The notes under the pieces: model-generated
Database searches by the model: none
Told to the model about the DNA's origin: nothing
Seen by the model: the letters and a program-made list of their open reading frames with translations, nothing else
Translations under genes and position numbers: made by a program
IMG/VR virus record: IMGVR_UViG_3300048091_000131
Span: 1 to 27,823 of that record
Length of the DNA stretch: 27,823 nt
Direction: 5' to 3' (one strand)
From: a virus
Part shown: positions 31 through 3,958 of the stretch, in pieces
How the letters are laid out: the number at the start of each line of letters is the position of its first letter
Numbering within the stretch: the first letter of the stretch is position 1

Positions 31-118
31 GGAGGTGTGGCCGAGTGGTTTAAGGCAACGGTCTTGAAAACCGTCGACTGTAACAGGTCCATGAGTTCGA
101 ATCCCATCGCCTCCGCCA
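31..118 (+). tRNA. tRNA-Ser (anticodon UGA)
   Basis: The 7-bp acceptor stem GGAGGTG (31-37) pairs with CGCCTCC (108-114), followed by discriminator G and an encoded CCA at 116-118. The anticodon stem ACGGT/ACCGT (58-62/70-74) closes the loop CTTGAAA, giving anticodon TGA at 65-67, which reads UCA codons. A long variable arm follows, as in class II serine tRNAs, and the T arm contains GTTCGAATC. The 3' end faces the prophage, which is the usual arrangement when a phage integrates into a tRNA 3' end, so this is the probable attachment gene. I did not find a second copy of the tRNA 3' end in the window, so the att core is not defined. Confidence 0.97.
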
Positions 119-128
119 TATTTGGTAC

Positions 129-163
129 CGACAAAGCCCTGATTATTCAGGGCTTTGTCGTTT
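129..163 (+). terminator. Intrinsic terminator after tRNA-Ser
   Basis: A perfect 14-bp stem (129-142 with 147-160) with loop TTAT is followed by TTTC. It lies 10 bp after the tRNA CCA end and would terminate the tRNA transcript before the + strand genes that follow. Confidence 0.85.
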
Positions 164-193
164 CTGGCGTCCTGAGAAATTTCTGTTGTGCCA

Positions 194-327: not shown

Positions 328-537
328 ATGCCGAATTCAGATCTGCTCCCTTCTCTGCTTTACAAAATCAATGAGAACCAACTCGCTCTCGAAGCCGCCA
401 TCATGGAATTATCCAACTGGGTCGAGCAGCGCGGTTCTGCGGATGTCGCCGAGAACGTCCGGGGAGCTCTTTGGGCGATCGACAAGAACGAAGAATTTAT
501 CAAAATGACTTTGGCTGTGTTGATGACTCCCGACTGA
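328..537 (+). CDS. Small conserved protein of unknown function (69 aa)
   Basis: The ATG at 328 is preceded by GGAGG at 316-320 with a 7-base spacer, a strong ribosome binding site. The 69-aa product is predicted mostly alpha-helical (SLLYKINENQLALEAAIMEL, then SNWVEQRG), with no membrane segment or cysteine. I recognise the pattern as a small protein recurrent in Pseudomonas accessory regions, but I know no function for it. It precedes the SOS-box gene by about 80 bp and may be a separate unit. It reads opposite to the phage late operon, as expected of prophage-end cargo or flanking chromosomal DNA. A longer overlapping reading frame starting at 186 lacks a ribosome binding site and was not chosen. 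Confidence 0.75.
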   Translation: MPNSDLLPSLLYKINENQLALEAAIMELSNWVEQRGSADVAENVRGALWAIDKNEEFIKMTLAVLMTPD

Positions 538-580
538 CAGCTCGTCGCCTCCCCCTCGCCCACCTGTCTCGACTCGATTA

Positions 581-596
581 CTGTACATGCATACAG
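581..596. promoter_or_regulatory. LexA (SOS) operator
   Basis: CTGTACATGCATACAG matches the gamma-proteobacterial LexA rule CTGT-N8-ACAG exactly, including the alternating AT-rich middle. It ends 24 bp before the ATG at 621, where a repressor would block a promoter. A weak -10-like TACAGT follows at 602-607. This predicts that the 621-1346 gene is off in growing cells and switched on after RecA-dependent LexA cleavage. The match is seen directly; the regulation is inferred. Confidence 0.8.
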
Positions 597-620
597 CATT
601 TGTACAGTGAATCTCGCAGC

Positions 621-1346
621 ATGAATTTCGACCAAGCAAAAACCCTACGGCTCCAGCGATGGCGCGCGACTCTCGACGATCAGGACTTCCGCATGCAAAA
701 CCCAGAGGGGCATCGGGGAACTCTTCACGAAATGGCCGCTACGCTCCGCGATGAGAGCCTGATCGACCAGCTTGAACAGTTCGACATGAACGAGATGGCA
801 GACGCGGCCTATTGGCATGGTGTCGAGGAGTTGCAGAGTTCGCCAGGCCATTACCGCGGCGCATCGACTTATGACGTCGTGCAGGCAGATAACGGAAAGC
901 TACTCGGGACGATCAGCCGCTCGATTTTCAACTTCGCGAATGACGAGCCTCGCGGTGCCTCCTTCGCCTATGACGGGAAGATCTACTCCGATTCGGACGG
1001 AGTAAGGTTGACCTTGGGGCTTTCTCGGAGGATTGGGAAGATTTCAGGCTTGGCGCTGGAAATGAACAGGCACCGTTACCAGTTGATCGAGACCGAGCGA
1101 ATGATCGCCGGGATCACCCACCACCCTCTCTCTGACCCTGACGCCTATCGTGCGCTCGTAGATGCGGCACAGGTTGCACAAGAAGAACGGGATCTGCGCA
1201 CCTTTGAAAAAATGCGACCTCAGATCGAGGCGGCAGCTTTCTGCATCTGCCCTGGCTGCCTCGATCGCTTTGGTGCGCGTGATGACTGTCCGACATGTGC
1301 TGGAAAAGGTTTCGTGAAGAAGCCAGTGCCGACGTGTCTACGCTGA
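621..1346 (+). CDS. SOS-controlled protein with C-terminal Cys4 zinc-ribbon-like motif (241 aa)
   Basis: I chose the ATG at 621 because it lies just after the LexA box. The upstream in-frame ATG at 471 overlaps the previous gene and would place the operator inside the coding sequence. The first about 210 residues are hydrophilic and contain no motif I can name. The C-terminus holds CPGC then CPTCAGKGF, a Cys4 arrangement like a DnaJ-type zinc-finger half or zinc ribbon, which suggests nucleic-acid or protein binding. There is no signal peptide or membrane segment, so it should be cytoplasmic. The ribosome binding site is weak. It lies between the tRNA and the AT-rich cargo module and reads opposite to the late genes. 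Function unknown. Confidence 0.8.
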   Translation: MNFDQAKTLRLQRWRATLDDQDFRMQNPEGHRGTLHEMAATLRDESLIDQLEQFDMNEMADAAYWHGVEELQSSPGHYRGASTYDVVQADNGKLLGTISRSIFNFANDEPRGASFAYDGKIYSDSDGVRLTLGLSRRIGKISGLALEMNRHRYQLIETERMIAGITHHPLSDPDAYRALVDAAQVAQEERDLRTFEKMRPQIEAAAFCICPGCLDRFGARDDCPTCAGKGFVKKPVPTCLR

Positions 1347-1385
1347 AAGATCAATGTTCGAAGAAAGCGATGTGCGGAATTGCTG

Positions 1386-1565: not shown

Positions 1566-2240
1566 ATGGCATTCCCGGAAAGTATTTTTGTACCCATAGG
1601 TGTCGTTTCGGCGGCGCTGATTGCGGGAGCAATCGCATACGCGAGTTTCATTTCGACAAAGGAATCAAAAGTCTCTGAGTTCAGACAAAACTGGATCGAC
1701 GGACTTAGAGAAGAAATATCTCTATACGCTTCATGCATAAACTCATTGATAGAGCATATAACTAGAGAAAGCCTAAAAACCGATAAGCCGACATCCAGCA
1801 GCCTGCTTTGCAAGCTCGACGATAGCGAGCTTTATACAACTCTACTCAAAGCAAAAACGAGCATCGCACTTAGAATCAATGATAAAGAAAAAGAAAAAGA
1901 AGATTTCGAAAGAAACAAAGAATTTCTAAACCTAATCAATCTAACTCATAAAAACTTCGAAGAAGGAAATTTTGAAGGCACTCACAAAGCAATAGATTCT
2001 TTAATTTCAATATCAAGAGAACTGCTTAAGCATGAGTGGAATCGCGCTAGAGATGGCGAAAAAAAGTACCAAGACGCCAAGGCGACATCCCAATGGTCAA
2101 TCGGAACGGCTGGCGCATTCCTGATGGCGCTCTTAATGACAATTGCCTATGAATCCTTAGTTGCTGCGGAAAACATCCACACCCCCACACAACTACAACA
2201 CAAGCTTATTCAGACAAGCAATCTTCCTAAAACATTCTGA
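1566..2240 (+). CDS. Two-TM membrane protein of the AT-rich cargo module (224 aa)
   Basis: An N-terminal membrane segment lies at about residues 7-28 (IFVPIGVVSAALIAGAIAYA) and a second at about 178-202, separated by a large charged, helical domain rich in Lys and Glu. Just after the first segment is KVSEFRQNWIDGLREEI, a motif I recognise from uncharacterised bacterial membrane proteins. GAGG upstream of the ATG serves as ribosome binding site. The DNA is visibly AT-rich compared with the phage structural genes, a sign of separate acquisition. It is followed 16 bp later by the DUF2971 gene on the same strand, so the two are probably co-expressed. A membrane sensor or effector anchor is a reasonable guess, but its function is not known. 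Confidence 0.8.
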   Translation: MAFPESIFVPIGVVSAALIAGAIAYASFISTKESKVSEFRQNWIDGLREEISLYASCINSLIEHITRESLKTDKPTSSSLLCKLDDSELYTTLLKAKTSIALRINDKEKEKEDFERNKEFLNLINLTHKNFEEGNFEGTHKAIDSLISISRELLKHEWNRARDGEKKYQDAKATSQWSIGTAGAFLMALLMTIAYESLVAAENIHTPTQLQHKLIQTSNLPKTF

Positions 2241-2256
2241 AAAAGTGAACAATCAT

Positions 2257-3000
2257 ATGATTTTATATAAATACGTTAGTCAACTTGGATTAAAGGCAAT
2301 AATTGACAACCTGACCATTAGATTCACCGTGCCAAGCTTCTTCAACGACCCCTTTGACTGTGCACTCTCAAGCGGATCAACTCCCGAAACAAGCAACCTC
2401 GAAAATGTACTTTTATCACTCCATCACAGAAATAGATCCGGGGCCCTTTGTTTAACAAGAAACAAATTCAACCTGCTGATGTGGGCTCATTATGCGGAAA
2501 ATCACAAGGGTGCTGTTATCGGATTTGATACTGACATTGCAGAACTAGACTGCGAATCAAAAAATATAATTACTGCAAAAGCAGGATCTGTGATTTATAC
2601 ATCCATACGACCCTCAAGCTACGGCTCAGAACTACCATTTGAATTCAACTCTAAAAGTGACAGATCAGTTCTGGAGAAAATTTTTCTTCACAAATCCATA
2701 CACTGGGCATACGAAGAAGAAGTTAGAATCGTCAGAGTCTTACACCCTGAACTAGACGAAATGACCGTAATCCATAATGGCATGGCTCACAGAGATTTCA
2801 CCATACCCAAAAACGCCATTAGAGAAATATATCTTGGCACTAGATTTTGCAAGTCACAGGAAAATAATGCGTTAATCCACAAAATCTGCGATGAATTTAC
2901 GAATATAAGATTCGCCAAGTGCTATCTCGACGACCGAGAATGGAAAATGAAGGCAATTGCCATTTCTAAATCACATATAGATCACAATTTATTTTTCTAG
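2257..3000 (+). CDS. DUF2971 family protein (247 aa)
   Basis: Family hallmarks are present in order: LYKYVS at residues 3-8, FNDPFDC at 29-35, LMWAHYAENHKGAVIGFD at 74-91, and HWAYEEEVRIVR at 149-160. The usual length of about 250 aa is kept, so the gene looks intact. I start it at ATG 2257, which gives the normal N-terminus; GTG 2245 is an alternative and the longer frame from 2161 overlaps the previous gene. DUF2971 has no settled biochemical function that I know, but members are common in mobile islands and prophage cargo. The conserved polar and aromatic blocks suggest an enzyme. The gene ends 11 bp before the convergent spanin gene. A defence or toxin role is inferred from context only. 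Confidence 0.9.
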   Translation: MILYKYVSQLGLKAIIDNLTIRFTVPSFFNDPFDCALSSGSTPETSNLENVLLSLHHRNRSGALCLTRNKFNLLMWAHYAENHKGAVIGFDTDIAELDCESKNIITAKAGSVIYTSIRPSSYGSELPFEFNSKSDRSVLEKIFLHKSIHWAYEEEVRIVRVLHPELDEMTVIHNGMAHRDFTIPKNAIREIYLGTRFCKSQENNALIHKICDEFTNIRFAKCYLDDREWKMKAIAISKSHIDHNLFF

Positions 3001-3011
3001 CTCAGATAAAA

Positions 3012-3518
3012 CTATTTTCGATCTATTTCTTTTATGTAAGCCTGACAAGCCTGCAGCGCAATCAATCCCCTGTCGCCTTCGTCGGTAATGGCGATAATTC
3101 GTTGAGCATGCGCTGGGTCAAGTCGGGCGCGTACGGCTGCATGATCCACGCCGCCGGCGCCGGGAGCGGCAGACACTGAACAGCCACCGGCTGAATCCGC
3201 GTCGAGGAGGACTGACAACCGGACATCAGCAGTGGCAAGGCGATCGCGCAGGCGAGCCTGATCCTTTTGTGCATTGGTCATTTTCTCGAAGTGGGTTTGC
3301 TCGCTGGCTGCCAGCTTCTGCTCGAGCGCCAGCCGCTTTTCCTGCTCGGCCTGTTGCGCGGTGGCGGCAGCCTGAGTCAGTTGATTCATGGTGTCGGCGT
3401 GCTGCCGCGCCTGCTCGGCCAGCTGCCTGTCGTAGCGCCAGTCCTGAAACTGCCAAGCACTGCCGGCGCCGCTCAGCAACAGCGCCATCACTCCGACCAG
3501 CTTCCACGGCACGGTCAT
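3012..3518 (-). CDS. Rz: i-spanin (Rz-like lysis protein)
   Basis: The N-terminus MTVPWKLVGVMALLLSGAGS is a signal-anchor membrane segment, followed by a periplasmic coiled coil rich in Gln, Ala and Glu (about residues 28-100), the normal Rz plan. The start ATG overlaps the endolysin stop (TGATG), so GTG 3521 was not chosen. The i-spanin joins the inner membrane to the o-spanin in the outer membrane and fuses them in the last step of lysis. The o-spanin gene is nested inside in the +1 frame, as in lambda. It is the last gene of the late operon and converges with the DUF2971 gene. Confidence 0.88.
   Translation of the reverse strand: MTVPWKLVGVMALLLSGAGSAWQFQDWRYDRQLAEQARQHADTMNQLTQAAATAQQAEQEKRLALEQKLAASEQTHFEKMTNAQKDQARLRDRLATADVRLSVLLDADSAGGCSVSAAPGAGGVDHAAVRARLDPAHAQRIIAITDEGDRGLIALQACQAYIKEIDRK
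3062..3274 (-). CDS. Rz1: o-spanin lipoprotein nested in Rz
   Basis: This 70-aa frame lies wholly within Rz in the +1 register. The N-terminus is MHKRIRLACAIALPLLMSGC: a basic start, a hydrophobic core and the lipobox L-M-S-G with Cys20 as the lipidation site. The mature part is about 51 residues and contains the proline-rich stretch LPLPAPAAW expected of Rz1. Small size, lipobox, proline content and nesting together make the call secure. It would be anchored in the inner leaflet of the outer membrane and contact Rz across the periplasm. Confidence 0.88.
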   Translation of the reverse strand: MHKRIRLACAIALPLLMSGCQSSSTRIQPVAVQCLPLPAPAAWIMQPYAPDLTQRMLNELSPLPTKATGD

Positions 3519-3943
3519 CACGGCACATCCTTGAAGAAAACGTGCCCGCCCAGCCTCAGCGTCTGCTTAGCTTTCGCCGACCATGCCGGGGCCGTCTTCA
3601 TGGCAATCGCGTAGTAGTGCGTCGCTCCACCAGTAGGATCAGGCACCTTTCCGTCGATCACTTGGTCTGCTGCAATCCGCGCCTGCGCCAGTTCGCGAAA
3701 CGGGATCTGCTTCTCGCCGATCAGGTAGGCGGAGTTCGGATCGTTCTTGTTCCAGCAGCTGAACTGGTACGGCTTCTGGCAAACCCCGGAGTAGCCCTCC
3801 CCCCACCACGAATTGGTCTTGCCATCGAATACCCGGTTCCGGATCGTCCAGGCCACGGCCACCTGCCCGGCCGTTGATTCACCTCGGGCTTCGCCCCACA
3901 GCGTGCGCGCGAGGACGTCTCGGTCTTTTTCAGTTGCAGCCAT
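3518..3943 (-). CDS. Endolysin, SleB-type cell wall hydrolase (141 aa)
   Basis: The sequence begins close to LARTLWGEARGES, the signature of Hydrolase_2 (SleB-like) enzymes, with the catalytic Glu at residue 18 in WGEARGE. Later blocks AVAWTIRNRV, YQFSCWN and GGATHYY also fit. There is no signal peptide or SAR segment, so it needs a holin for release, and none is seen nearby. I chose ATG 3943 because GGAG lies 7 bases upstream; the frame also has GTG 3946, too close to that site. Its stop overlaps the Rz start. A terminator hairpin lies just upstream, so it may be expressed by read-through. Confidence 0.9.
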   Translation of the reverse strand: MAATEKDRDVLARTLWGEARGESTAGQVAVAWTIRNRVFDGKTNSWWGEGYSGVCQKPYQFSCWNKNDPNSAYLIGEKQIPFRELAQARIAADQVIDGKVPDPTGGATHYYAIAMKTAPAWSAKAKQTLRLGGHVFFKDVP

Positions 3944-3958
3944 CACTTTTCTCCAGGC

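Follow-up and report, generated by a model that had tools for sequence, protein, structure and literature searches.

The window, by which we mean the whole 27.8-kb stretch of DNA analyzed here, is a virus record that does not extend to its own CI and integrase genes, and it begins with a short cassette on the plus strand, situated between a tRNA gene and the end of the late operon (Table 1). An Rfam scan of the window recovers only this tRNA, and no DNA similarity of the window to sequenced phages was found. The preliminary description of this DNA had reported a perfect operator 24 bp in front of an ORF for a 241-aa protein, read against the late operon at the prophage end and next to a tRNA attachment gene, and this arrangement is confirmed in every respect: the candidate LexA operator CTGTACATGCATACAG ends 24 bp before the ATG, and the late genes, including the lysis genes at their end, lie on the opposite strand. 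An alternative TTG start at position 600 was rejected, 1–2 nt indels being present between TTG and ATG in some relatives.

Table 1. Coordinates of the features discussed in the text, as positions in the window.
Feature	Position	Strand	Remark
tRNA-Ser(TGA), integration target	31–118	+	
Putative attL core	59–180	+	from the anticodon loop to past the tRNA 3' end; right limit approximate
69-aa ORF (phrog_12397)	328–537	+	usual, not constant, upstream neighbor
Second conserved cis element AGCTCGTCGCC	539–549	+	41–43 bp 5' of the LexA box in the family, 42 bp (start to start) in the window
Putative LexA operator CTGTACATGCATACAG	581–596	.	matches the Pseudomonas consensus in PMC13114513
First cassette gene, 241 aa, Zn-finger-type family phrog_19595	621–1346	+	
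Codons of the invariant CxxC-x9-CxxC, residues 210–226	1248–1298	+	
SRAP start remnant ATG TGC GGA (MCG)	1370–1378	+	23 nt after the stop, canonical spacing
224-aa protein with predicted membrane segments	1566–2240	+	at the place of SRAP
DUF2971 protein, candidate defence family PDC-S31 (PADLOC)	2257–3000	+	
Lysis-region genes, convergent, end of late operon	3012–3946	-	

A single perfect match to CTGTN8ACAG is not significant by itself, because about 0.4 such sites are expected by chance in the window (27.8 kb/4^8); the box is the sole perfect one, and allowing one mismatch yields 10 sites versus 8.6 expected. Unlike the lone match, the position and conservation of the operator are significant, as judged from a census of 129 non-redundant family members having upstream sequence. 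Their promoters contain a perfect site in 97 cases and a site with one mismatch (mostly CTGTN8CCAG) in another 27, compared with 0.5 and 2.6%, respectively, of 5,759 random 125-bp windows from the same loci. Homologues devoid of the operator, which the preliminary description had named as evidence that would refute its proposal, are limited to five of the 129 promoters. Four of these belong to one clade (L104, L223–L225), with a perfect box located 434 bp upstream of the L104 gene, ahead of the next ORF on that side; in the fifth (L059), the sequence before the gene is unrelated. The box starts at -33 to -40 in the family promoters, except for two cases at -51, and its 5' end is found 38–40 bp before the start in the close relatives from GTDB and IMG/VR. 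In more distant homologues, which were collected with the family profile from 399 Pseudomonas genomes, from the phages Meadow and LPPA36 and from further scans, the letters of the box and its center vary while the half-sites are kept (e.g., CTGTATGTAAATACAG, CTGTACAAATAAACAG, and CTGTATGCGCATACAG), down to protein identities of 26–29%. In three of six records examined, the phage records G002, G004, and G005 of 53–57 kb, the box is also the sole perfect site. The closest clade additionally shares a conserved TTTGTACAGYGAA block at 599–611, which places an extra half-site GTACAG 11 bp past the right half of the box. A sigma-70 scan did not detect a consensus promoter at the box, and a -35/box/-10 layout at the operator is a guess.

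The same type of site is present in the hosts themselves. The published consensus for LexA of P. aeruginosa is CTGTATAAATATACAG (PMC13114513), the lexA promoters of five host genomes carry a perfect CTGTATAAAAAGACAG plus a one-mismatch box, and the umuD promoter of host genome G001 contains CTGTACAAATATACAG. The operator of the cassette is thus close to the gene start, conserved among orthologues and of the same type as at host SOS genes, as expected for a member of the LexA (SOS) regulon. Hence, the direct control by host LexA suggested earlier is backed by the operator in 124 of 129 promoters and by its likeness to the lexA and umuD sites: the sequences strongly suggest that the 241-aa gene is LexA-controlled, and binding of LexA as well as induction by DNA damage are predicted accordingly from the box. 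An assignment of the box as an operator of the phage repressor CI is unlikely, because the CI proteins of G002 and G005, each consisting of an HTH part and a Peptidase_S24 domain (E 2e-18 and 3e-17), differ in their HTH parts while the box type is the same; a second phage-repressor operator in place of a LexA site was rejected on these grounds. The CI genes of both phages are located tens of kb from the gene of the 241-aa family.

Genes of prophages under host LexA are known from the antirepressors Tum of phage 186, AntC of N15, and GftA/GfoA of the Gifsy prophages (PMC3121763), and the cassette resembles them in being a LexA-boxed prophage gene far outside the immunity region. The 241-aa protein might therefore be an antirepressor of this kind, which would inactivate the phage repressor and trigger induction. 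However, the repressors in the Tum, AntC, and GftA phages are not inactivated by cleavage, whereas G002 and G005 possess CI proteins with S24 domains, which are expected to be self-cleaving and to need no antirepressor, and their HTH parts differ while the family of the first gene stays constant. Moreover, a length of 241 aa contrasts with the small size of repressor-binding proteins, searches with family libraries revealed no sequence similarity to Tum, AntC, or GftA, an SRAP gene follows in the operon, and the slot also accepts an unrelated coiled-coil gene (see below), all of which makes an antirepressor unlikely.

The 241-aa protein is matched over its full length by the phrog_19595 profile of PHROGs v4 (residues 4–239, E 7e-98), and the homologues from Meadow, LPPA36, and other clades are also members of this family. 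The entry lists the function as unknown, and PHROGs records neither the operator nor a link to SRAP. Matches to the profile occur in 165 of 399 Pseudomonas genomes, some of them covering the N-terminal domain alone and about 30 being full-length or nearly so. The family was detected in Pseudomonas only: a search of 369 genomes sampled from the class recovered a single match, in the Pseudomonas genome used as the query. The dN/dS values of 0.08–0.135 versus seven relatives indicate strong purifying selection on the gene. The Cys4 motif noted at the outset proves to be invariant across 43 aligned members (C210-x2-C213-x9-C223-x2-C226), together with the residues W14, P28, E69, Y84, Y176, and R177. 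Two CxxC pairs are thus conserved throughout the family, as in zinc ribbons or zinc knuckles, and the motif would be expected to bind zinc.

Searches of Pfam, NCBIfam, and PADLOC produced no match above cut-off for the 241-aa protein, nor did PADLOC for SRAP; the best Pfam values of single members (JTB, MtxA) were below the cut-offs, looked unrelated, and were discarded, and a sequence search of the PDB with the family returned nothing significant. A certain likeness exists to the zinc knuckles of the DnaJ cysteine-rich domain and of anti-TRAP, with which the 241-aa family shares the arrangement CxxC...CxxCxGxG, but the family has two CxxC pairs only. The corresponding scores are all below the curated cut-offs, with E 0.25 for PF00684 in one of 43 members, E 0.066 for the PDB entry 1exk, and E 0.018 for the anti-TRAP family in four members. 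The zinc finger also connects two of the 43 members to TIGR02642 (best E 0.015) and thereby to a Q-like late antiterminator. This match is weak and probably reflects the Cys motif alone, and the gene is convergent with the late operon and situated past its 3' end, so that an antitermination function seems extremely improbable.

Structure prediction depended on the homologues supplied: 31 close ones gave a poor model (pLDDT 58), 43 diverse ones a good model (pLDDT 87.1, pTM 0.76). The latter shows a helical bundle at the N-terminus, a beta domain (about residues 80–167), two helices, and the Cys4 motif at the tip. Foldseek searches against the PDB and viral models gave no hit at E ≤ 0.001. A VIA search, which spanned residues 1–75 only, related the helical bundle to ribosomal protein bS20 with Z up to 9, but the arrangement of helices is a common one and homology to bS20 was not accepted. 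Because the recognizable part of the fold is limited to this common bundle, the model gives no clue to an activity. A stand-alone version of the N-terminal 70 residues is found on Pseudomonas plasmids and chromosomes as well; in the plasmid loci L077–L080, the domain is either a stand-alone protein of 73–80 aa or part of a longer protein, similar to phrog_6137, and the LexA box is absent from the four plasmid loci of this domain that were checked. A modulator of LexA or RecA, providing feedback in the manner of GIL01 gp7, DinI, or PsiB and tuning the SOS response during induction, would suit the autoregulatory position of the gene in the SOS circuit, and GIL01 gp7 (PMC4551915) offers a precedent. 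Yet the family lacks similarity to gp7, DinI, and PsiB and is conserved in association with SRAP, not with SOS regulators, which makes such a modulator quite unlikely.

The location of the cassette beside the attachment site can be traced in complete genomes. Three complete host genomes (G024, G259, and G306) contain prophages of 52.5–56.6 kb that carry the gene and are flanked by direct repeats of 83–121 bp, which begin in the anticodon loop and include the 3' end of the tRNA. The matching repeat core of the window begins near position 59, and the family gene lies 1.3–3 kb inside one repeat copy in all three genomes, in agreement with the assignment of tRNA-Ser(TGA) as the attachment gene. 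The prophage of G002 is bounded by a 47-bp repeat of the 3' end of a tRNA-Pro instead; an integrase gene adjoins the tRNA at one end, and the family gene is found at the opposite end, about 240 bp inward from the second repeat copy. The position of the gene beside att is therefore kept although the target tRNA differs. In phage Meadow, the family gene adjoins the integrase gene. An excisionase-like or otherwise att-linked function could be read from this vicinity to att, at a few hundred to a few thousand bp, and to the integrase of Meadow. It appears very improbable, because the same family and promoter are found at tRNA-Ser and tRNA-Pro sites alike, and because the protein has 241 aa, no recognizable HTH motif, and SRAP as its partner. 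The role in excision considered in the preliminary description is thus not supported, and no evidence was obtained for a role in lysis timing, which had been raised along with it.

The most informative context of the gene is provided by its downstream neighbor. Among 140 relatives, the next gene on the same strand codes for an SRAP (YedK/HMCES) protein in 63 intact and 15 partial cases, its start being most often located 23–24 nt past the stop of the first gene. Its identity is evident from the matches to PF02586 (E 4e-46) and to YedK structures (E 3e-52). All 84 intact copies have Cys2, and 83 of them have the Asn, Glu, and His motifs. In the other 62 relatives, the first gene persists although SRAP is missing; SRAP is thus a common but not an obligatory part of the cassette. 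SRAP is also present in distant contigs resembling LPPA36, whose first gene shares only about 27% identity with that of the window. A mirror-tree comparison of the Cys4 protein with SRAP (r 0.47, 0 of 999 permutations) reflects a shared ancestry of the loci, co-adaptation and linkage being inseparable by this method. At least one SRAP gene was found in each of 14 Pseudomonas genomes examined, and the LexA box was absent from the seven chromosomal SRAP copies examined, which suggests that the prophage supplies an SOS-controlled copy.

The window itself belongs to the loci that have lost SRAP. The frame following the stop of the first gene retains the sequence ...KAMCG and then diverges, and blastn alignments of the window to the SRAP-bearing loci L010, L011, and L014 stop at position 1378. 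The SRAP-containing form of the operon exists in relatives, and the MCG start alone is left of SRAP in the window. The genes for the 224-aa protein and the DUF2971 protein found in its place recur as a pair in L071, and L031 has the 224-aa protein without DUF2971; the pair may possibly represent a prophage-borne defence unit.

The promoter of the cassette contains a second conserved element, AGCTCGTCGCC, upstream of the LexA box, which was recovered with at most one mismatch from 83 of 125 non-redundant promoters versus 4 of 3,490 controls. The similarity of the window to many relatives begins at this element. When 399 Pseudomonas genomes were scanned for the composite pattern CTCGTCGCC-N28-34-CTGTN8ACAG, 47 contained it, whereas the reversed control gave only a handful of hits. 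When 49 loci with the composite promoter were read, at least 33 turned out to carry an unrelated first gene for an apparently coiled-coil protein of 93–130 aa (252 aa in one case) with a DDWLGxPT motif (L270–L318, e.g., L273, L286, and L311); a few loci classed as "other" contain variants of this protein. Annotation of this family above cut-off was not obtained, and a YabA-like match is below the curated cut-off and may be due to coiled-coil bias. The surroundings resemble those of the Cys4 gene: at least 8 of the coiled-coil loci continue with SRAP, 11 of 33 have the 69-aa ORF upstream, and 19 of 33 share the convergent lysis genes. Loci of both types are interleaved in the SRAP tree, and the SRAP following a Cys4 gene (L244) is 95% identical to the one following a coiled-coil gene (L286), indicating that different first genes are exchanged between a constant promoter and SRAP. 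In L315 (G338:C16, about 538 kb), the composite SOS promoter is located ahead of a long ORF (355 or more aa) with RHS-like sequence.

From these data, we tentatively propose a dedicated slot for SOS-controlled genes, common to Pseudomonas prophages and located just inside att, where two or more unrelated first genes are swapped between one composite promoter and the same SRAP. The two first genes might then be functionally equivalent, assisting or regulating the crosslinking of abasic sites, or else encode SOS checkpoint proteins, and a second regulator different from LexA would read AGCTCGTCGCC; we regard this extended scheme as possible rather than probable. SOS-induced inhibitors of cell division are small, unrelated to each other, and lineage-specific. 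Two unrelated, swappable first genes under one promoter would fit well to such a situation, namely a phage-encoded inhibitor of division or replication initiation similar to SulA, YneA, or SidA, which would buy time for repair or phage replication. But neither sequence nor fold of the 241-aa protein is similar to known inhibitors, and the similarity of the coiled-coil proteins to YabA does not reach the cut-off, so that we consider a checkpoint function rather unlikely, if still worth keeping in mind.

The reading we prefer, with a probability of roughly 0.5, is that the cassette represents a LexA-controlled, CI-independent accessory operon of Pseudomonas lysogens involved in DNA-damage tolerance. 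In an undamaged lysogen, host LexA would occupy the operator and keep the operon off, and cleavage of LexA upon DNA damage would allow its direct transcription, bypassing the phage CI. In its usual form, the operon would provide the Cys4 protein together with an SRAP protein capping abasic sites in single-stranded DNA, and the Cys4 protein may act in the same pathway, either in damage tolerance or in protecting phage and host DNA at stalled forks. Where the phage SRAP is lost, as in the window, it would work with the chromosomal SRAP of the host. The operator, its conservation, the operon context, the prophage location, and the selection on the gene are strongly supported by sequence data, whereas LexA binding and induction, zinc binding, the partnership with SRAP, any biochemical activity, and a benefit are inferred. 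Speaking against this reading are the loci without SRAP, the window among them, the uninformative fold, and the lack of a consensus sigma-70 promoter at the box. That the gene heads an operon with SRAP in about half of the relatives suggests a role in DNA-damage tolerance, and the earlier suggestion of an effect on host SOS gives way to this narrower one.

Several aspects of this arrangement have precedents. LexA-controlled prophage genes are already known, and so are SRAP genes in SOS operons with Zn-ribbon partners: the occurrence of SRAP in temperate phages and beside Zn-ribbon proteins in Ku neighborhoods was noted earlier (Aravind et al., 2013, PMC3765255), and the partners in known SRAP operons are UmuDC, ImuAB-DnaE2, DinB, or Ku (PMC3765255). 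The cassette resembles those operons in combining SRAP with a Zn-chelating protein in an SOS-type operon, but differs from them by its Cys4 or coiled-coil partner, its location on prophages, and its composite promoter, and in the case of the window by the missing SRAP. Open-licence PMC papers yielded no description of the LexA control of the family, its pairing with SRAP, the AGCTCGTCGCC element, or the exchange of first genes, and the text read of PMC2647930, which deals with P. fluorescens Pf-5 and its prophage 06, mentions neither an SOS gene nor a LexA box. Further LexA boxes were observed elsewhere. Perfect ones are present just upstream of genes for D12-class (Dam-like) DNA methylases in Meadow (L075, 8809–8824) and G001 (L239, 701–716), and these methylases may possibly be another LexA-controlled gene of mobile elements. 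LPPA36 contains a second perfect box (L111, 6724–6739) before the next gene, coding for a GAF-domain protein, and a second box likewise follows the family homologue in Meadow (L075, 6694–6709).

The cassette would tie prophages of a widespread genus to the LexA circuit of their hosts by a route outside the phage repressor, and the fixed AGCTCGTCGCC element may point to a further regulator. The partners of bacterial SRAP proteins are largely unknown, which lends interest to the Cys4 and coiled-coil proteins, and the swappable first gene offers two unrelated proteins that can be compared for a shared task with SRAP. If the proposed function in damage tolerance is true, lysogens would gain an additional SOS-controlled protection, which may be relevant for their survival of antibiotics and UV light.
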